64,000 nucleotides of DNA, from positions 1 to 64,000 of the forward strand of contig CALXHI010000037.1 of NCBI GenBank assembly GCA_944388075.1. Reading direction: 5' to 3'. Made by a program: the position numbers and the translations under genes. Within the stretch, counting starts at the first letter, position 1, and every line of letters starts with the position of its first letter. This DNA is from an uncultured Clostridia bacterium. Lineage in GTDB: Bacteria > Bacillota > Clostridia > Oscillospirales > Ruminococcaceae. The notes below the pieces were generated by a model. The model was given only the letters and a program-made list of their open reading frames with translations. It made no database searches and was not told the origin of the DNA. Positions 30,992 through 40,582 of the stretch are shown here, piece by piece.

Positions 30992-31065
<74 letters not shown>

Positions 31066-31138: not shown

Positions 31139-31170
31139 GCCCCATGAACAGAATCTGCCATCCATGGGGC
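31139..31170 (-). terminator. terminator of the dlt-like operon
   Basis: Arms GCCCCATG/CATGGGGC with a 16-nt loop, followed on the minus strand by TTCTTT. It lies 8 nt after the last gene of the operon. Confidence 0.6.
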
Positions 31171-31177
31171 GTGAACA

Positions 31178-32014
31178 TTAGCGATACAGGGCATTGATTT
31201 CCTCGCTCTGATGACCTGCCGCACCGGCACAGTCATAGTCCTCCTTGAACAACTGTGTCAGCGTGCCGAACGGAACCGTATGGCGGCCGCCTGCATAACG
31301 ATACTGCGAGATACGGAACATAATCTGCGAATCGTCACAGGCATCCAGCACAATCGACATGTCCCGATCGGTCTGCTCAATGCCGTAGTAACGGGGCGAA
31401 GTCGAGAACTGGAACAGCTCCTGCGTACCGAACGATGAGGTATGGACAATCGTCAGAATCGGCTTACGGTTTTTCCACATCTCCTCCTGCTTTGGGGTAT
31501 CCCAAAACGCATCGGCAGCAATCAGCTCCGGTGTCACAGGCATATCCAAGGTTTCGAGTCTGGCACAGCCGGAAAATGCACCCATATGAATGGCACGAAT
31601 GGTACGGGGCAGCTTCACAGATTCCAATGCAGCACAGTTACGGAACGCATTCGTCTCGATGGTCGAAATGCCCTCTGGAATGATAATGCGGCGCAGCAAG
31701 CCACAACCTTCAAAGCAGCCCCTGCCGATTTTACCATAGCTGCCATCGGGGTAGCGCATGGTATCGGGGAAATTGAATTCCTCCATGACGTCACAGTCCC
31801 GAAAGGCATAGTCTCCAATCTCACAAACCCGTTCGGGCAGCAGTACCCGCTTCAGACTGCGGCATTCCCGAAATGCGTTTGCGCCGATGACCAGCACCGT
31901 GGGTATCAGCTGTACCTCAACCACCGACTGACCCTGAAATTCGCCCATTTCCACACGGTCTTTGTTCTTTGTTTTCAGAACATCGCTATTGTTTTTCTTG
32001 GAAAACAGTCCCAT
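31178..32014 (-). CDS. leucine-rich-repeat (BspA/LRR_5-like) protein
   Basis: A 278-aa protein without signal peptide. From about residue 40 to 180 it has BspA-like repeats (IGANAFREC, IGDYAFRDC, IETNAFRNC, IHMGAFSGC), each about 23 residues. The remaining C-terminal third (about 185-278) is not repeat-like. Such LRRs bind proteins. GGAGG precedes the ATG. Last gene of the operon starting at 40482; a scaffold or regulatory role is possible. Function unknown. Confidence 0.75.
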   Translation of the reverse strand: MGLFSKKNNSDVLKTKNKDRVEMGEFQGQSVVEVQLIPTVLVIGANAFRECRSLKRVLLPERVCEIGDYAFRDCDVMEEFNFPDTMRYPDGSYGKIGRGCFEGCGLLRRIIIPEGISTIETNAFRNCAALESVKLPRTIRAIHMGAFSGCARLETLDMPVTPELIAADAFWDTPKQEEMWKNRKPILTIVHTSSFGTQELFQFSTSPRYYGIEQTDRDMSIVLDACDDSQIMFRISQYRYAGGRHTVPFGTLTQLFKEDYDCAGAAGHQSEEINALYR

Positions 32015-32069
32015 TGCAGTATCCTCCTTTGCAATATCGTTCAGCCGGTCTCGGCCACCGGCATAACGG

Positions 32070-33005
32070 TTACGAAAAATACTTCTGCTTTCTGGTCAAC
32101 CGCAGCAGCAGCTCCAGACGCATTTCATTTTGGTATTCGGGTTTCACCATATAGTAGATGTAGCTTTCCAGTACATTGATATCCGGCAGCGAACGTCCCT
32201 CCAGCTTGAAATTGCGATAGCCTGCCGGCACATACTGCTCATAGATGGCTTCCGGTGTCACATGCGTGCGGAAACCGGTTGTCGCATAGAGCGGCAGCTC
32301 CATGTACTTGCAGGTAAAGGATTGTACATCGAGTCTCGGCGGTGTTGCACCGGGCTTGGCGGTTTTCGCCCATTTGGCATATTGCAGCTGCGACTTACCG
32401 ATACAGCGATAATGATCGCCGCGGCGTGGGCAATCCGGATCGCAGCAGGCATCCACCAAAATCTCACAGCGTTCCGGTGCGGAAATCTTGGACAAAACCT
32501 CCCAATTGTTATTGTGCCGATAGTCCAGCACTACCAGCTGATAGGGCTTTGCCAATTCCGCCTCCAACGCCTGCGCATCGGTCAACTCCTTGCAGGTAGA
32601 CGAAATAATCGGAAAATTCGGGTAGTTTGTGCGGATATAGTCCTCCAGAATCGGCGATGCCACAATGACCTCATTCAGCCCATTGTCAGCAAGCTTCAGC
32701 AAGCGATTGCAAAAGCCGTCCTGCAAATGCTTCTCCTCAATCAAGGGATTGGTGAAGGTGTAGCGACAGGGAATGCCCTGGTCATTGAAGGACTTCAGCA
32801 CCGCCTTCATGACACGCTCATCGCACTGTCCCTGAAAGAATCTGCCGCCATTCCAAAGTGCCGTCGGGAACACACCGTAAACCGAGCCGATCGTGACATT
32901 GTCCCGAAACTTTTCCGGGTGGTTGTGCATCGCCTGCACCAACAGCATGTTCAGCGTAAAATGCTTGAGGAAATCCGGAATATGAAAACGAATCTGCTCG
33001 CTCAT
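32070..33005 (-). CDS. U32-like TIM-barrel Cys-rich protein
   Basis: A 311-aa protein I place only loosely with the U32 peptidase/UbiU-like family: the pattern of CRYTFTNP, NEVIVASP and FPIISST resembles successive barrel strands with substrate loops. Cysteines C187, C188, C192, C201 (ACCDPDCPRRGDHYRC) and C232 could bind a 4Fe-4S cluster, as in UbiU/UbiV. Start at MSEQIRF follows AAGGGTG; the preceding GTG is less likely. It starts 11 nt after the lipoprotein gene. Alternative: an uncharacterised family of its own. Confidence 0.5.
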   Translation of the reverse strand: MSEQIRFHIPDFLKHFTLNMLLVQAMHNHPEKFRDNVTIGSVYGVFPTALWNGGRFFQGQCDERVMKAVLKSFNDQGIPCRYTFTNPLIEEKHLQDGFCNRLLKLADNGLNEVIVASPILEDYIRTNYPNFPIISSTCKELTDAQALEAELAKPYQLVVLDYRHNNNWEVLSKISAPERCEILVDACCDPDCPRRGDHYRCIGKSQLQYAKWAKTAKPGATPPRLDVQSFTCKYMELPLYATTGFRTHVTPEAIYEQYVPAGYRNFKLEGRSLPDINVLESYIYYMVKPEYQNEMRLELLLRLTRKQKYFS

Positions 33006-33016
33006 CACAGTCACCC

Positions 33017-33586
33017 TTACATTTTATAGGTATAGACAATCGAAGTGACCTTGCCGCCCTCGAGGAAGAATTGCAGTGCCACGCCCTCACCGTTATAGGA
33101 AGCATAGGCAGCAGTCTGCTGAGACGGTTCGCCGCAGACAGCAGTCACGGCCTCAAGCGTATCACCGACCTTCACGCCCTCATTGGTTTGTACCGTCGCA
33201 TCGGTCAGCGTGACCGCATATACCTTATTGAGATTGTCCTGCGGATAGGTTTCGATGGTAAAGCCATCGTAGGTGTAGGTATAGCTTGTACCCTCAAACG
33301 CACAGGAGGGTGCGTCAAATGTCGATTTCGGCTCACCGAGTGCCTTGACGATGGCATCCGCATCGGCATTGATGGCAATTTCCGTGCCGTTTATCTTCCA
33401 AGCATAGCTGACCGTGCCGGGCTTCACGCTGCTCTGCTCTGCCATATAAGCCGGATCACTGGTTTCAATCGTGCCGGTCATGGGTGCTTTGGAATCGGTG
33501 CTTGTGACGGACTCTCCACAAGCGGTCAAGGCTGCCGTCAGGGTCAATGCCGTCAGGACAGCGGCAACTTTATGATTGCATTTCAT
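33017..33586 (-). CDS. lipoprotein with two GEP-type repeats
   Basis: A 189-aa lipoprotein: signal peptide ending in LTACG (Cys 23). Two similar halves each begin with a loop containing GEP (ALGEPKSTFD and VCGEPSQQT) followed by beta strands rich in Tyr, reminiscent of the BamE/BLIP-like fold. It sits between the SGNH protein and the U32-like protein in the operon, with 18 and 11 nt gaps. It may be the extracytoplasmic partner of the acylation machinery (inference). Confidence 0.75.
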   Translation of the reverse strand: MKCNHKVAAVLTALTLTAALTACGESVTSTDSKAPMTGTIETSDPAYMAEQSSVKPGTVSYAWKINGTEIAINADADAIVKALGEPKSTFDAPSCAFEGTSYTYTYDGFTIETYPQDNLNKVYAVTLTDATVQTNEGVKVGDTLEAVTAVCGEPSQQTAAYASYNGEGVALQFFLEGGKVTSIVYTYKM

Positions 33587-33604
33587 ATGCGTCTTCCTTT
33601 CTGT

Positions 33605-34678
33605 TTATGTGGTTTCGGGTTCGTGAATGCTGCCGTATTGCTCGAGGTTTTGCAATTGACGTGCCAGCTCCGCATCATAGCGTTCGGCAATCTCTGCCCA
33701 GTATGCGTCCAATGCCGCATCTCCACGGCGGTCAGACAAAGCATACTGTTCCTGCATATAAGCCCCGAGCCAATCGCTCAGCTTTTCCGCACCATAGACA
33801 TTCAGGTGCAAGCCTGCGTCATAGGTATCGGTTGCAAAATCAATACCGGTTTGCGCAAGCAGTTTTTCCTCAAGGAAATTGATGTATACCAAGCCGTGCT
33901 GCTCGGCATATGCAACGATTTGCTCGTTCCACTCGTCATACCAATACGGATAGAGCGACGGTGCTTTCATCAGCACCAACTTCACACCCTTTTCTTCACA
34001 GAGCATCCGCATTTTGTCAAGATATTCCCAACAGACATCGCCAAACCCGTAATCCTCGAGCGGCCGTCCGGTCGGAACATTCTCTGCCGACTTGACATCG
34101 GCACGCAGGTAATAGCCGCTGAAGAAGTTCGGTTCAACCCCAAAGTAATACCGAAAATCGTCTGCCGTCAATTCACTCCAACGGGAATGATAGCGCAAAA
34201 TCGGGAATACATACGAGGCAAAATTCTCCTCTTCGGTCATGGACGCTTGAATGGCATGGACTTTCGAGGGCGACCATTTCATGCCCTCAAGCGACATACG
34301 ATTATACGCCTCATTCTGCGGTGTATCGTACTTCATCGACAGCACATTGAAGAACACGACCTTTGGTGTTTCGTAACGCAGAGCATCTTCGAGCAGGTAA
34401 TAGGACTGCCAAATCAGCTGCTGCGCCGAGCCTCGAATATAGGAGGGAATGCCGTACTGCTCCCAGAGCCGCACCGGCGAGACATTTTCATACACCTCAC
34501 AGTCTCCGACAAAGAGTACATCGTGGGTATAGTTGCTTTCATAATAGTCCGCAATGAGATTGCCCTCGACCACATCGGACATATACTTTGGCTGCAAGAG
34601 CCGCTGTGCCGCAGCAGCCAAAACGATGGCGGAGATCAGCATCGCAGCACCCGAAAGCACAATTCGTTTGGTTGTCAT
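33605..34678 (-). CDS. SGNH/DltD-like envelope protein
   Basis: A 357-aa membrane-anchored (helix about 7-27) extracytoplasmic protein. The nucleophile loop reads VGDCE, so Cys60 replaces the usual Ser of the GDS/GSS motif, while the C-terminal D...H pair (DAGLHLNVYG, about 287-290) is intact. In dlt operons DltD occupies this place and hands off the acyl group to teichoic acid. AAAGGCGG precedes the ATG. It follows the MBOAT gene by 17 nt. Confidence 0.8.
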   Translation of the reverse strand: MTTKRIVLSGAAMLISAIVLAAAAQRLLQPKYMSDVVEGNLIADYYESNYTHDVLFVGDCEVYENVSPVRLWEQYGIPSYIRGSAQQLIWQSYYLLEDALRYETPKVVFFNVLSMKYDTPQNEAYNRMSLEGMKWSPSKVHAIQASMTEEENFASYVFPILRYHSRWSELTADDFRYYFGVEPNFFSGYYLRADVKSAENVPTGRPLEDYGFGDVCWEYLDKMRMLCEEKGVKLVLMKAPSLYPYWYDEWNEQIVAYAEQHGLVYINFLEEKLLAQTGIDFATDTYDAGLHLNVYGAEKLSDWLGAYMQEQYALSDRRGDAALDAYWAEIAERYDAELARQLQNLEQYGSIHEPETT

Positions 34679-34695
34679 GATATGCCGCCTTTCGC

Positions 34696-36288
34696 TCAGA
34701 ACTGGTTATAGATAAACTGACTGGAATCGTAGCCAATGCCGTATGCGCCGAAAATCAGCACAATCAAGAACAGTGCAACCGTCATGGCGCAGCTGAGCAC
34801 CGGCGACTTCTCGAGAATCCGCTGCCGCACACTGCCCTTGCGTCCGAGCATACTGGCAACGAACAGCAACACCATTCCCACAGCCAATACGATATAGTCC
34901 GATACGGACAAGGAAAGCTCGAGCAGACTGCCGTCCCACAGCACCGAAAAATTGCCTTTCGTAAACATACTGCCGAACATCCGAAAGGTCAGCGGTACAT
35001 CTCGATAGCAGTCAAACATACGCAGACAGCCCATCAGCAATGTAGTACGAAGTGCCTGAAAACCGCCATAGGCATGGGTATTGCTCCAGGCGAATCGTTT
35101 GTGGAAGCGATCATAGAGCGGCGTCAATCGCTCCGAAATGAGAATGATCACCGCATTCATCAAGCCCCAGACAATAAAATTCCATGCCGCACCATGCCAC
35201 AAGCCGGTCGTGAACCAGACGATCAGCGTGGCGGCATAGACCGGCACGTATTTGCCGATGGTCTTGCCCAAGGTCTTGCGGCTCCACTTCGAGAGATTGA
35301 GCATCGGGGCACAAACGCTGATGGGATAGAACAGATAGTCCTTGAACCATGTACCCAAGGTGATATGCCATCTGCGCCAGTATTCGGTGATATTCTTCGA
35401 GAAGAACGGCCGCTCAAAATTTTCTGCCATCGGTATGCCCAGCACCTGCCCGATACCAATCGTAATATCAATGCCACCGGTAAAATCGGCATAGAGATTG
35501 AGCGTGTAATAGAGAATGCCGATGAAGGCATACACGCCGTCATACTGTGCCGGATCGGAAATTAAGGTTGTGACGGCAGGCAGAATACGGTCAGCCAATA
35601 CCATCTTTTTCAGGTAGCCCCACAAAATCCGCTGTGTCCCGAACAGGACTCGTCCGGCCTGAAAGCCATTGCCGGCGAACAGTCCCTGTGCCAATTGATC
35701 ATAGCGGCTGATCGGACCTTGAATGAGCTGCGGAAAGAACGATACAAACAGTGCAAGCCTTGCCGGGTTCTTTTCGCAGGCATATTTCTCCCAGTATACG
35801 TCAATGGCATAGCCCATGGTCTGGAAAGTATAGAACGAAATGCCCATCGGCAGCAGCAGCTGTGGTACGGCGAACACATCGCCCTGCCCGAACCAGCCTG
35901 CGATACTATTGATGTTACGCAGCGTAAACGCACCGTATTTGAGTACCGCCAGAATGCCGAAATTCAGCAGCAAGCAACAGACAAGCAGCCAAAAGCGTTT
36001 CTTCTGCATCTGCTCCTTGTATGCCTTTTTCTCATCCCGGCTCCAGACGGATTTGTTTGCCGCCAAGGTTTCCTTGCGTTGGTCGGCAATCCGTTCCATG
36101 GCACAGGTCAACAGGTAGGTGCTGATGGTTGTTGTCAGGATAAAGAGCAGATTCTCAAGTCCCGAACAGGCATAAAAGCCATAGCTTGCCGCCAACAGCA
36201 GCATCCAGCGAAACCGCTGCGGTATCACGAAATAGACGATGCACAGGATCGGCAATCCAACTAAGAATGCGCCCGATGTAAACAGCAT
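34696..36288 (-). CDS. MBOAT family O-acyltransferase (DltB/AlgI-like)
   Basis: A 530-aa polytopic membrane enzyme. Family motifs are YWRRWHITLGTWFKDY and the catalytic His in LWHGAAWN (about 360). It moves an acyl or aminoacyl group from the carrier protein across the membrane. The N-terminal LFTSGAFLVGLPIL is typical. The ATG overlaps the carrier stop by one base (TGATG), so translation is coupled. AlgI-like acetyl transfer is the alternative, but the carrier and adenylation genes argue for aminoacyl transfer. Confidence 0.92.
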   Translation of the reverse strand: MLFTSGAFLVGLPILCIVYFVIPQRFRWMLLLAASYGFYACSGLENLLFILTTTISTYLLTCAMERIADQRKETLAANKSVWSRDEKKAYKEQMQKKRFWLLVCCLLLNFGILAVLKYGAFTLRNINSIAGWFGQGDVFAVPQLLLPMGISFYTFQTMGYAIDVYWEKYACEKNPARLALFVSFFPQLIQGPISRYDQLAQGLFAGNGFQAGRVLFGTQRILWGYLKKMVLADRILPAVTTLISDPAQYDGVYAFIGILYYTLNLYADFTGGIDITIGIGQVLGIPMAENFERPFFSKNITEYWRRWHITLGTWFKDYLFYPISVCAPMLNLSKWSRKTLGKTIGKYVPVYAATLIVWFTTGLWHGAAWNFIVWGLMNAVIILISERLTPLYDRFHKRFAWSNTHAYGGFQALRTTLLMGCLRMFDCYRDVPLTFRMFGSMFTKGNFSVLWDGSLLELSLSVSDYIVLAVGMVLLFVASMLGRKGSVRQRILEKSPVLSCAMTVALFLIVLIFGAYGIGYDSSQFIYNQF

Positions 36289-36527
36289 CAGTCTTCCTCA
36301 AGCGACTCGACGAGAGCCGCCAATGCCGCTGCGGAATTGAAGTTTTCCGGAACGATCCGGTCTGCCGGGATCTTGACATCAAATTCATTGCTGATTTCAG
36401 TAATGACCGTAATAATGTCAAACGAATCGAGAATTTCATCGTCAATCAGCGTCGTGCAGTTCTCAAAATCCACATCCTCATGCAAATCCTTGAGAATGCT
36501 CAAAATGGTTTCCATGGTTTCGCTCAT
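36288..36527 (-). CDS. acyl carrier protein (DltC-like)
   Basis: A 79-aa carrier with the phosphopantetheine Ser35 in DSFD. It is very acidic and helical (DEILDSFDIITVITEI). It receives an amino acid from the adenylation enzyme 20 nt upstream. AAAGGATG precedes the ATG. Confidence 0.92.
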   Translation of the reverse strand: MSETMETILSILKDLHEDVDFENCTTLIDDEILDSFDIITVITEISNEFDVKIPADRIVPENFNSAAALAALVESLEED

Positions 36528-36547
36528 GGGAATATCATCCTTTCACA

Positions 36548-38059
36548 TCATGCTTCTTCATAAATCGCTCGCAATGCGGTACGATTGAGTTTTCCGTTGG
36601 GGGTATGGGGCATCTCGTCCAGCTTGCGAATGAGATTGGGCTGCATATAGCGTGGCAGCCGCTGCTTGAGGTATGCCGCCAGCGCCGGTTTCTCTGCCGC
36701 TCCGGTATAGAACAGCACAATCTTGCCCTTTTGGTTGTCATAGATACAGCCAACTGTTTCCACGCCATCGAACAGACCGCAGTTGATCTCGATCTCGCCC
36801 AGCTCAATGCGATGTCCCATATGCTTGATCTGGTAGTCCTTTCGGGACACAAATACCAAATCACCGTCCTCATTATAGCGGCCGATATCACCGGTACGGT
36901 AAATCAGCTCCGGATATCGGGTTTGCAGGGGATTTTGCACGAATACCTCTGCGGTTTTCTCCGGCTGTCCGTAATAGCCCATCGTCAGGCAAGTGCCTCG
37001 AATGCAAATTTCACCGGGTTCACCGTCCTTGACCGGTCGGTTCTCCGCATCGAGCAGGAGAATGCCGGTATTGCGGAACGGCTTGCCAATCGGAATGGCA
37101 TCCGTATCGGCAAATTCCCGATTGACATGGTAATAGCAGCTCATGCCGGTCGCTTCAGTCGGACCATAAAGATTGGTAAATTTTGCATGCGGGAGCACCG
37201 ACTTCCAGATACGGAACTGCTTAACCGGAAAGACCTCGCTGCCAAAGGCAATCGTGTGCAGCGCTTCGGGCTTAACAGTATCGAATGTGCCGGTGGCAGA
37301 AATCATCGTCAATGCCGACACAACCCAGCAAATCGTGTTAATGCGGTGCGCATTGAGATACTCCACCAGCTTGATCGGGAACGAGAAGCAGGATTTCGGC
37401 ACAAGATAAGTCGTAGCACCAAATTTCAAAGTCGGGTACATCTCTTTCAGACAAGCATCGAAGTAAAGCGGTGCCTGATTGCCGAATACGGTTTCCTCAG
37501 AGAAATCCAAGGTTTCCGACAGCGTTTCGATATAGTCAATCACCGAACGGTGGCATGCCAGAATACCTTTCGGAATCCCGGTCGAGCCGGAGGTGAATAC
37601 AATATAAATCGGGTCGGTATCGATTTGGCGATTGCGAATCGCCTGCAAAGCAGCATCATCGGGTGTCGTCTTGATGATGGCATCAAAGCGCAGTACCGCA
37701 TCGGCATAGCCATATTGCACAAGCAAAGGCTCGGTCACGGCATCGCAAATCACCGCACGGGGTTTGAGCTGCTCGAGAATCCGCTCAATGCGAAATGCCG
37801 GCATCTCTACATCAAGCGGCACATAATAGCAGCCCGCATAGACAACACCGAAAAACGCATTGATTGCCGACGGTGATTTCTCCATAAACACCACAATCGG
37901 CTCACCGAAAAAGCCGCATTGACTGAGCTTTGTGCCAATGGCTCTGGCATTGCAATAGACCTCCGCAAAGGTCAAGGCTTCTGCGTCATTGGCAAAGGCA
38001 ATTTTATCGGGACAGCGTGGTGCAGTCTGCTCCAAATATTCGAGTACATTCGTTTGCAT
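36548..38059 (-). CDS. amino-acid adenylation enzyme (DltA-like)
   Basis: A 503-aa stand-alone adenylation enzyme. The phosphate-binding loop is FTSGSTGIPKG, A5 is NLYGPTEAT, A7 is YRTGDIGRY, and the final lysine is in NGKLNRTAL. No thiolation domain is fused; the carrier is the next gene. The A4 segment reads FDACLKE and the pocket is not obviously that of D-alanine DltA, so substrate is open. The start at MQTNVLEY has GAGG 8 nt upstream. Preceded by the MITE-like repeat at 38081-38251. Confidence 0.88.
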   Translation of the reverse strand: MQTNVLEYLEQTAPRCPDKIAFANDAEALTFAEVYCNARAIGTKLSQCGFFGEPIVVFMEKSPSAINAFFGVVYAGCYYVPLDVEMPAFRIERILEQLKPRAVICDAVTEPLLVQYGYADAVLRFDAIIKTTPDDAALQAIRNRQIDTDPIYIVFTSGSTGIPKGILACHRSVIDYIETLSETLDFSEETVFGNQAPLYFDACLKEMYPTLKFGATTYLVPKSCFSFPIKLVEYLNAHRINTICWVVSALTMISATGTFDTVKPEALHTIAFGSEVFPVKQFRIWKSVLPHAKFTNLYGPTEATGMSCYYHVNREFADTDAIPIGKPFRNTGILLLDAENRPVKDGEPGEICIRGTCLTMGYYGQPEKTAEVFVQNPLQTRYPELIYRTGDIGRYNEDGDLVFVSRKDYQIKHMGHRIELGEIEINCGLFDGVETVGCIYDNQKGKIVLFYTGAAEKPALAAYLKQRLPRYMQPNLIRKLDEMPHTPNGKLNRTALRAIYEEA

Positions 38060-38080
38060 GCTCTCATCCTCTTTATTTAT

Positions 38081-38251
38081 GGCGACACCGCACAAAGATT
38101 GTGCGTCAGATGCGCAGTCGATTTTTTCGTCAGATGAAACAAAAGGCGCAGGAAATACTCTGTGTATTTTCGAGCATTTTTGTGAAATACGACGAAAAAG
38201 CGCAAGCAGATGGCGTACAAAACCGTCAGGCGGGCTTTGTGCGGTGTTGCC
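38081..38251. repeat. MITE-like repeat element with 17-bp terminal inverted repeats
   Basis: The ends GGCGACACCGCACAAAG and CTTTGTGCGGTGTTGCC are inverted repeats with one mismatch. The 171-bp element contains an internal palindrome (AAATAC/GTATTT) and no gene. TTAT flanks both ends and may be a target duplication. It lies between the racemase and the adenylation gene. Confidence 0.65.
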
Positions 38252-38264
38252 TTATATGTAACGC

Positions 38265-38978
38265 TCACAGCAGCCGATAATCCGGACGCACCGAATAGCC
38301 GCACGCCCGAATGGCAGAGGTTGCCAGTACCGCCATCGCATCGAGATAGCCCTCGCCAATGGCTTGCTGCTGCTGTACCACGGACAATTCCGTACAGCCC
38401 AAAATCACACGTTCTGCGCCCTGCTGCCGCAGACCATTGGCAACCGCATGAAACGAACGCAGCGAAACAGGCTGTCCGCATTTGACCTGGTCATAAATCA
38501 TACGCATGACAATGCGCTGATGCTTTGGCATGGGCACAACACAGTGAATGCCCTCCGCTTCCAATGCCGCCTGAAACAAGCCGGCTTGCAGCGTACCATC
38601 CGTTGCCATGATGCCGGCAGTGCGGATACCATGAGCGGAAAGTACCCTTGCAGTTTCCCGAATCGGGTGCAGCAGTTCCGCCGAAAACGTCTCTGCCATG
38701 ACATCATAAAAGCCATATGCCGTCATACAGGGAATGGCAAGCACTTTAGCTCCCATCTGTTCCAGACATTTGCCCGTATCGAGCAGATTGGGCAATGGGC
38801 TTTCCGTGCTTTGCCCAAGCAAGCAGGCAGTGCGGTCGGGCGTATCCGGTCGGCTGTACAAAATCGCTTCGATATGCTCCTGATCACGCTTGGCATCGGT
38901 CAATGCCGTCAGCAGCGAGAGGAACTGTGCCGAAGCCATCGGACCCAAACCGCCGATGATGCCGAGTTTCTTTTTCAT
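38265..38978 (-). CDS. aspartate/glutamate racemase family protein
   Basis: A 237-aa racemase with both catalytic cysteines, C84 (IPCMTAYG) and C195 (LGCTELS). The usual IPCNTAH is changed to PCMTAY, so the substrate-binding residues differ from typical aspartate racemase. The nucleotide start at MKKKLGIIGGLGPM has GAGGGG 7 nt upstream. The gene begins 19 nt after the transglutaminase and precedes the adenylation enzyme, so it may supply a D-amino acid to it (inference). Confidence 0.88.
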   Translation of the reverse strand: MKKKLGIIGGLGPMASAQFLSLLTALTDAKRDQEHIEAILYSRPDTPDRTACLLGQSTESPLPNLLDTGKCLEQMGAKVLAIPCMTAYGFYDVMAETFSAELLHPIRETARVLSAHGIRTAGIMATDGTLQAGLFQAALEAEGIHCVVPMPKHQRIVMRMIYDQVKCGQPVSLRSFHAVANGLRQQGAERVILGCTELSVVQQQQAIGEGYLDAMAVLATSAIRACGYSVRPDYRLL

Positions 38979-38997
38979 AGGCATTCCCCTCGTATCC

Positions 38998-40482
38998 TCA
39001 GGGCGTTGCCGGATACAGGCTGGTATCCCGCTTGAAACAATTGCCGTTGCGTGCGGAGTAGGCATCCATCTCCGCATCGGTCAACAGGAAGAAGTCGGAT
39101 CGTCCCACACGGGGTGTTGTGTCAAAGTGATACCATTCTCCGTCCACCTTCACCAGATTCCAAAAATGCTTGGCTGAATTTTCTGTTGGCGGAATATGCT
39201 CGACCAGCATATTCTCCACACCGGCACATTCCAGCAGCAGCCATGCAAAACCATAATAGTTCCGGCAGTCGCCATAGCCGCGTTGAATGGCAACCGCAGC
39301 CGCATATTTCCAGTCGAGCACATCCTTGTTATCTTTGTAGAACATATGATCCTGCACATAGCGATAAAGCTTCCAAGCCCGTTCCCGTTCATCGAGATCC
39401 TCGGTAAGGATTTGTTCGGTAATCGCATAGCCCATGCGATAGATGGTATCGTCGGTCAGGGTGGTGACATCGGTATCAAACGGCAGCACCGTCAGTGTAA
39501 CCGGTACTTCTGCCGTATTGCCCGCCGCATCGGTTGCTACATAGGTCAGCGTATGCTCCCCTTCGTCATACTGTGCAGGCGTCATATCGTCCTGAAGCTT
39601 GACCGCAACCGCACCGTCATTCGTGTCCTTTGCCGTCACGCCGTGCAGATAGGAAATTTCCACGCCCTTGAGAGTCACCAAATCCACCGCACCGGTAATC
39701 ACCGGCGGCTCTGCATCGCCCACCACCGAATATGCCACCTCCACTGTTGTCTGATTGTCGGCTTCATCCGTCAGAAGAATCTGCACCGTCCGATCGCCCA
39801 AGCTGCTGACATCCGGTTCTGTGACAAATGTCATCGTCACGGCACTTGCATCCTCGCAGGACGCAAAGAAATCCTCACAGGTAATCGGCTGATTGACATA
39901 GAAACGGCATGGGTTTTTCGGCTCTGCCTGCGGCGGCAGCGTATCCGTAATCATCAGCGTAAAGGGATAGGTGCCGCTCGCCATCGTTACCGAAATATCA
40001 AACGATCCCAAGGTATCAAAGTCGGTCGGTGCTTCGGAAAATATCGCATCGGCATAGTTTTCTCCCAAAATGGCAGCTGCCGTAGCATCCGTTCCCTTTT
40101 CCCATTGCAGAACGGATTCCTGAATGGTCAGCGTTGCATTTTCCACCCGCAGTGTGCCATCTGTCATTTCCAGTTGAATGGCGATCGGCTGTGTGCCAAC
40201 TTCCGCTTTCGGGGCTGCGACATAAGATGCCTTTCGCACCAGACCGTTTGCCTGCTCCGTTAAATAGGCATTGGCATCGGGAATCGGTTCTACGCTCCAG
40301 AGCGTTTTTGCATCTGCCACATAATCCGGACCTTTGAGCAAAGACGGCGTTTCAGCCCCCCGTGGCACTAAGAGCCAAATCAGCAGCAAAATCAGCAGAG
40401 CACATCCCAGCAGCCCTGCCAGTCCATATACAACAGAAAGCAGTTTCTGACTATTGCGTTTCGGCGTTGCAGTTCGTTTCAT
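38998..40482 (-). CDS. membrane-anchored transglutaminase-like protein with Ig-like domains
   Basis: A 494-aa protein: N-terminal transmembrane helix (about 15-40), extracytoplasmic beta-sandwich repeats including DUF5011/HYR-like units (DTNDGAVAVKLQDD, VATDAAGNTAEVPV) at about 250-330, and a C-terminal transglutaminase core with Cys in GYGDCRNYYG (about 405), His in KHFWNL (about 437) and Asp in YHFDTT (about 451). Such enzymes act as cysteine peptidases or crosslink proteins. First gene of the operon with a perfect promoter. Confidence 0.88.
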   Translation of the reverse strand: MKRTATPKRNSQKLLSVVYGLAGLLGCALLILLLIWLLVPRGAETPSLLKGPDYVADAKTLWSVEPIPDANAYLTEQANGLVRKASYVAAPKAEVGTQPIAIQLEMTDGTLRVENATLTIQESVLQWEKGTDATAAAILGENYADAIFSEAPTDFDTLGSFDISVTMASGTYPFTLMITDTLPPQAEPKNPCRFYVNQPITCEDFFASCEDASAVTMTFVTEPDVSSLGDRTVQILLTDEADNQTTVEVAYSVVGDAEPPVITGAVDLVTLKGVEISYLHGVTAKDTNDGAVAVKLQDDMTPAQYDEGEHTLTYVATDAAGNTAEVPVTLTVLPFDTDVTTLTDDTIYRMGYAITEQILTEDLDERERAWKLYRYVQDHMFYKDNKDVLDWKYAAAVAIQRGYGDCRNYYGFAWLLLECAGVENMLVEHIPPTENSAKHFWNLVKVDGEWYHFDTTPRVGRSDFFLLTDAEMDAYSARNGNCFKRDTSLYPATP

Positions 40483-40553: not shown

Positions 40554-40582
40554 ATTATAACCCGTAACCGAATATCTGTCAA
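40554..40582 (-). promoter_or_regulatory. promoter of the transglutaminase-racemase-dlt-like operon
   Basis: Consensus TTGACA (40577-40582), 17 bp, TATAAT (40554-40559) on the minus strand. It is the only strong promoter I can see for the run of genes down to 31178. Confidence 0.8.

Follow-up and report, generated by a model that had tools for sequence, protein, structure and literature searches.

The 64,000 nucleotide (nt) stretch of an uncultured Clostridia bacterium of the Ruminococcaceae analysed here (GenBank: GCA_944388075.1, contig CALXHI010000037.1, positions 1 to 64,000), hereafter called the window, carries an operon of nine genes on the minus strand, seven of which form a real, widespread and conserved system. 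In 5' to 3' order the nine genes encode a transglutaminase-fold protein (TG), a racemase, an adenylation enzyme (A), a carrier protein (C), an MBOAT acyltransferase, an SGNH-fold transferase, a lipoprotein (LP), a U32-peptidase-like protein and a leucine-rich repeat (LRR) protein, and the conserved core runs from TG to LP. We consider it rather probable that this core carries out a carrier-dependent export and transfer of aminoacyl groups, which resembles the Dlt pathway in its working, is differently built and has D-aspartate or D-asparagine as its cargo. The parts of the system, their linkage, the acyl-shuttle peptide that the MBOAT carries as a fused C-terminus, the Cys where the SGNH protein would have its nucleophile and the conserved pocket of A are established by sequence, conservation or fold.

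A conserved core of seven genes

Relatives of the system were collected in two samples. The search of a genome collection with the SGNH alignment found at least 553 relatives, and 80 loci were retained. The second sample was led by the MBOAT, with no selection on the SGNH sequence, and comprised 391 genomes of the class, in which an MBOAT of nearly full length and with at least 46% identity was found in 44 genomes besides the window's own. In the surroundings of the 80 SGNH-led loci, many genera have TG, racemase, A, C, MBOAT, SGNH and LP side by side, in Lachnospiraceae as well as Oscillospiraceae, and often reordered. Examples are the orders racemase-TG-LP-A-C-MBOAT-SGNH in the loci L069 and L073 and A-C-MBOAT-SGNH-AsnB-TG-racemase-LP in L048. 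The 36 MBOAT-led loci with wider flanks contain TG (33), SGNH (33), LP (26), racemase (25) and asparagine synthetase (4), counts which are lower bounds as some of these loci end at contig ends. Since so many genera keep these seven of the nine genes together, the gene set goes far beyond chance.

An earlier note on this DNA had counted the extra genes to a Dlt-like operon, which is supported for LP and TG and not supported for the other two. The LRR gene is restricted to 12 loci, all close relatives of the window, and among the loci read the U32-like gene is found in the window and L047 only, so both were rejected as core parts and are lineage-specific additions. With LP and TG as conserved neighbours, the locus does not have the form of an ordinary dlt operon with unconserved extras, the case which the note had set against its own proposal. 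The seven genes are kept together, either in the order of the window or in a shuffled one. The suggested DltRS-like control by a divergent two-component system found no backing in the comparison and was rejected as a conserved feature, because no such system was found upstream in any of the eight close relatives with a readable flank (L023, L039, L040, L043-L046, L067).

One locus, L038 (IMG/VR contig IMGVR_UViG_3300022753_002859), came from a scan of a viral collection and reads TG-A-C-MBOAT-SGNH-LP. It is filed as viral, is likely host sequence and is no evidence of phage carriage. Among plasmid records, the only tblastn match to A was a distant one from Paenibacillus (35.5%).

In the window itself, the nine open reading frames (ORFs) lie between a consensus promoter and a hairpin, at the positions and in the arrangement that had been described before (Table 1). 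Neighbouring genes are separated by 11 to 55 nt or overlap by 1 nt, with the exception of the 205 nt ahead of A. The repeat in this gap, which resembles a miniature inverted-repeat transposable element (MITE), lies outside the system, because it is a dispersed element that matches the genome of the window 44 times. Promoter-like sites occur across the region at chance level (10 observed, 10.2 expected), and a tRNA-Val is located at 30992-31065, beyond the hairpin terminator. Domains of the nine proteins were assigned with Pfam and NCBIfam models, which together with the fold confirm the four Dlt-like classes in A-C-B-D order. Ser35 of the carrier is kept in all 111 homologues.

Table 1. Features of the operon and its borders in the window, in the direction of transcription.
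Feature	Position	Strand	Evidence and spacing
Promoter TTGACA-N17-TATAAT	40554..40582	-	consensus match 12/12
TG, membrane-anchored transglutaminase-fold protein with Ig-like domain	38998..40482	-	PF01841 (Transglut_core), E 4e-10
Asp/Glu-type racemase	38265..38978	-	TIGR00035, 187 bits; 19 nt gap after TG
MITE-like dispersed repeat	38075..38257	.	183 bp, 23-nt terminal inverted repeats
A, stand-alone amino-acid adenylation enzyme	36548..38059	-	TIGR01733, 330 bits; ATG start; 205 nt gap holds the repeat
Carrier (C), phosphopantetheine Ser35	36288..36527	-	PF00550 (PP-binding); 20 nt gap after A
MBOAT acyltransferase with C-terminal FIYNQF	34696..36288	-	PF03062, TIGR04091 sub-threshold; overlaps carrier by 1 nt
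SGNH/DltD-like transferase, N-terminal membrane helix	33605..34678	-	weak Lipase_GDSL_2; 17 nt gap after MBOAT
Lipoprotein (LP), lipobox Cys23	33017..33586	-	BLIP-like tandem fold; 18 nt gap after SGNH
U32-peptidase-like Cys-rich protein	32070..33005	-	PF01136 below cut-off; 11 nt gap after LP
LRR_5 (BspA-type) protein	31178..32014	-	PF13306, E 9e-30; 55 nt gap after U32-like
Hairpin terminator	31139..31170	-	13 pairs, weak T tail

The fused acyl-shuttle and the cysteine nucleophile

The MBOAT of the window ends in a hexapeptide of the FXYXXF type, whose tyrosine is Tyr527, and no separate microprotein with this motif is found in the operon. In DltX and PatA the acyl group sits on the tyrosine of the hexapeptide (PMC12148441), and by analogy an acyl-Tyr intermediate may form on Tyr527 of the MBOAT. 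The catalytic His365 is present in all 116 homologues and Tyr527 in 115 of them, and nearly all members carry FIYNQF as part of the MBOAT. Twelve canonical clostridial dlt loci served as a positive control. In nine of them the hexapeptide stands at the end of a small DltX-like ORF (mostly as FIYN(Q/E/G)F, in two as FVYSQF), in three no such ORF was found within the stretch examined, and the C-termini of all 12 DltB proteins lack it.

In the SGNH protein, block I reads GDC instead of GDS, with Cys60 at the nucleophile position. The AlphaFold2 model (predicted local distance difference test score 93.2) consists of a membrane helix at residues 2-28 followed by the SGNH fold, where Cys60 is positioned directly after the first core strand. 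Because of the N-terminal helix, the protein is predicted to be extracytoplasmic. Foldseek with this model retrieved GDSL hydrolases, DltD, TesA and PatB; the SGNH profile had no match among the PDB sequences, so that the relation is seen by fold search only. Thus the fold common to DltD and the MBOAT-SGNH family is present, and the nucleophile is Cys rather than the catalytic Ser of both. Cys60 and His291 are conserved in 117 of 117 homologues and Asp287 in 116, and we propose that Cys60 would carry the aminoacyl group as a thioester.

The first 84 SGNH sequences include 30 with GDCEL or GDCEC, forms outside of what the search pattern required, and the MBOAT-led sample likewise has Cys at this position (one locus, listed as both L154 and L204, reads GDC). 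In distant operons the SGNH protein has Ser (GDS, GSS, GAS or GNS), except for a few which were not readable by the motif script. The Cys group is one clade in the MBOAT tree (support 100/99), with the Ser-bearing L033 as its sister, which fits a single Ser-to-Cys event. The combination of a carrier with a fused shuttle is also found in the wider family and is not unique to the Cys clade.

Two further proteins with a predicted outward-facing position have an invariant Cys. The TG triad C406/H439/D454 is complete in 91 of 91 homologues, and LP has a second, non-lipobox Cys95 in 96 of 96. Together with Cys60 of the SGNH protein there are thus three invariant Cys on predicted outside proteins, which hint at thioester chemistry and perhaps at an amide as the product. 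Neither TG nor the U32-like protein had a usable sequence match in the PDB. In seven loci (L049, L050, L051, L061, L065, L102, L104), mostly from Pseudobutyrivibrio, the operon has a flagellin-like ORF close by, usually directly downstream of SGNH and on the other strand in L050. L049 belongs to a cultured strain, Pseudobutyrivibrio ruminis DSM 9787.

The system of the window belongs to the MBOAT-SGNH acyl-shuttle kind and falls outside standard Dlt. With Dlt it has in common the stand-alone A, the carrier, the MBOAT and the SGNH-fold transferase in one operon, as well as the FIYNxF hexapeptide, which also occurs in clostridial DltX. It differs in having the hexapeptide on the MBOAT and no DltX, in the Cys of SGNH, in K239 in the pocket of A, and in a core that also includes racemase, TG and LP. 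None of the Dlt family models reaches its cut-off: A scores 256 bits with the DltA equivalog TIGR01734 (cut-off 559.85, which no more than 3 of the 17 near-canonical DltA from clostridia pass), the MBOAT 143.9 with the DltB equivalog TIGR04091 (cut-off 375) and the carrier 20.5 with the DltC equivalog TIGR01688 (cut-off 52.35). The model scores, the pocket and the architecture led us to reject a canonical dlt assignment. PatA/PatB-type acyltransferases likewise combine an MBOAT with a C-terminal hexapeptide and a separate SGNH partner, but they are described without a carrier protein and evidently use acyl-CoA (PMC12148441), whereas the window operon encodes A and a carrier and has Cys in place of Ser in SGNH.

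The adenylation pocket, the racemase and the candidate cargo

Aligned to clostridial DltA-like enzymes, the pocket of A reads DAKCAGLGMK in 104 of 120 homologues and is unlike the DltA-like sequences at most positions. Position 239 is Lys or Arg in 120 of 120 homologues, compared to 0 of 12 clostridial DltA-like enzymes, which strengthens the idea, already expressed in the earlier note, that a substrate other than D-Ala is probable. The nearest solved relative of the racemase is the aspartate racemase 1JFL (E 7.5e-45). Its TIGR00035 score is twice the cut-off (187 bits, cut-off 93.1), and the catalytic C84 and C195 are both kept in all 81 homologues.

Fourteen loci have an asparagine synthetase within or next to the operon, 10 of the 80 SGNH-led and 4 of the 36 MBOAT-led ones (L171, L172, L174, L197). 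Its placement varies; it adjoins the racemase in L171 and L172, and the window operon itself has none. The four asparagine synthetases tested all score above the TIGR01536 cut-off. In Lactococcus, racD and aslA share one operon and D-Asp is amidated by AsnH (PMC4155827). Taken together, the conserved pocket, the kinship with aspartate racemases, the asparagine synthetase and the Lactococcus precedent make D-aspartate or its amide, D-asparagine, the probable cargo, though each of them falls short of proof. The RacD-AslA-AsnH system of the Lactococcus cross-bridge is similar to ours in the operon of Asp racemase and activating enzyme and in the association with asparagine synthetase. It differs by its ATP-grasp ligase, a family without a hit among the nine operon proteins, where the window system has A and a carrier with MBOAT-SGNH export. 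The asparagine synthetase association, the basic pocket residue, the fused FIYNQF and the Cys for Ser in SGNH are all points beyond the earlier note.

Besides the racemase-containing loci there are sister operons (L025, L026, L030, L031, L036, L160, L161, L163, L164, L165, L169, L170) in which A and the carrier are combined with a pyridoxal phosphate (PLP) enzyme. Where not cut off, they also encode an MBOAT and a mostly Ser-type SGNH protein, with Cys in L036. Their A code is mostly DVKILSLCNK, also with K239, and because K239 occurs in both groups of A enzymes an acidic substrate class fits both. The nearest solved relative of the PLP enzyme is BtrK, a glutamyl-[carrier] decarboxylase, and these operons may export a decarboxylated omega-amino acid, for example a gamma-aminobutyrate- or beta-Ala-like group. 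Along with BtrI/BtrK of butirosin, these operons count among the nearest known systems. The operons share the A-carrier pairing and the basic residue 239 with the window system and differ in the PLP enzyme, in place of which the window operon has a racemase, and in the mostly Ser-type SGNH. In L028, L032, L158 and L162, A lacks Asp235 (SMxYxALDIK), so that its substrate may not be an alpha-amino acid. The codes of L155 (DSKDMCIVDK) and L156 (DAKLFALVDK) are near the glutamate code, which is DAKDLGVVDK, and an unassigned protein of 264-271 amino acids is encoded between A and carrier in both. The XrtA/PEP-CTERM amidotransferase model TIGR03108 also gives scores with the asparagine synthetases of L048, L053, L062 and L112, and TIGR03099 does so with the PLP enzymes of the sister operons; these matches echo the ligase, decarboxylase and amidotransferase set of exosortase-A clusters.

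A proposed export route and its alternatives

We infer the amino acid, the thioester and the order of the steps as follows. The racemase would provide a D-amino acid, most likely D-aspartate, which A would adenylate and load onto the carrier, and in some species the asparagine synthetase would amidate the cargo before or after loading. The MBOAT would then take over the aminoacyl group from the carrier thioester and pass it through the membrane onto Tyr527 in its own FIYNQF. From this hexapeptide the group would reach the membrane-anchored SGNH protein, where it would be bound to Cys60 as a thioester in place of the usual serine ester. Together with LP and TG, the SGNH protein would finally set the group on an extracytoplasmic acceptor.

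Several observations weigh against this route or its cargo. To our knowledge the code of A matches no characterised code, PF04464 polymerases were not found in the genome, and in about 30% of the MBOAT-led sample the neighbourhood of the operon showed no racemase. The racemase also passes the cysteate-racemase model CuyB, if barely (191.5 bits, cut-off 190), and reads CMTAY where 1JFL has CNTAH. This altered motif, to which the earlier note had drawn attention, is general, with the Asn replaced by Ile, Val or Met in 79 of 81 homologues, and because the Asn is lost the substrate may be other than aspartate. The same export machine might thus carry D-Glu, D-cysteate, D-Ser or D-homoserine, a choice which is also favoured by the 1.5 bits above the CuyB cut-off and by D235, A236, K239 and G301 that A has in common with the glutamate code. 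We regard it as somewhat unlikely, since an asparagine synthetase as operon member speaks for Asp or Asn and the nearest solved racemases are aspartate racemases. A related question is whether the final product is an amide, formed from the SGNH thioester and/or by TG on amines of surface proteins or amino sugars, which would be compatible with a D-Asp or D-Asn cargo. Thioester chemistry favours amines, and the invariant Cys of SGNH, TG and LP as well as the flagellin-like ORF in seven loci agree with such a product. However, such acceptors are hypothetical, the flagellin adjacency comes mostly from one genus and L050 has the ORF on the other strand, so we rate an amide as unlikely.

Ordinary D-alanylation of teichoic acids by a dlt operon with accessory genes, in which A charges D-Ala and the racemase is incidental, would explain why the four functional classes are the same. 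The genome encodes one LtaS-like sulfatase-family protein, and none of the 45 system-bearing genomes in the 391-genome sample has a near-canonical DltA, so that the system could fill its niche. But this lack of overlap is not significant (P 0.12), for which reason we do not claim mutual exclusion with canonical DltA. With the DltA, DltB and DltC models far below their cut-offs, a charged residue at 239 in a pocket that differs from DltA-like enzymes at most positions, a racemase of the Asp/Glu family instead of an alanine racemase, the association with asparagine synthetase, the fused shuttle and the Cys nucleophile, ordinary D-alanylation is distinctly improbable. The probability of a chance neighbourhood of unrelated genes is practically negligible: the LRR, U32-like and two-component genes are indeed not conserved neighbours, but the seven-gene core, found in many genera in shuffled orders, refutes it for the core seven.

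The general arrangement looks undescribed, as far as a partial check against the literature goes: in full-text searches no paper was found whose title and abstract describe this combination, with the 2023 Nature Microbiology survey of MBOAT operons standing outside the comparison. The operon joins two schemes that have been described as separate, the carrier-protein donor and the MBOAT-fused shuttle peptide, and its natural Cys-for-Ser SGNH transferases make acyl transfer by the SGNH fold directly testable. Tentatively, we picture a widespread envelope pathway of gut Clostridia which would combine a D-acidic amino acid or its amide, a self-acylating MBOAT, a Cys-SGNH thioester and amide bonds on the surface, possibly made via TG and LP. 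For gut bacteria, surface charge and surface amino acids govern encounters with phages, with lysozyme and the defence peptides of the host, and with its immune system; established cases are teichoic acids bearing D-Ala and lactococcal walls containing D-Asn. Our results suggest that hundreds of species from gut and rumen carry a surface decoration that has not been sought so far.

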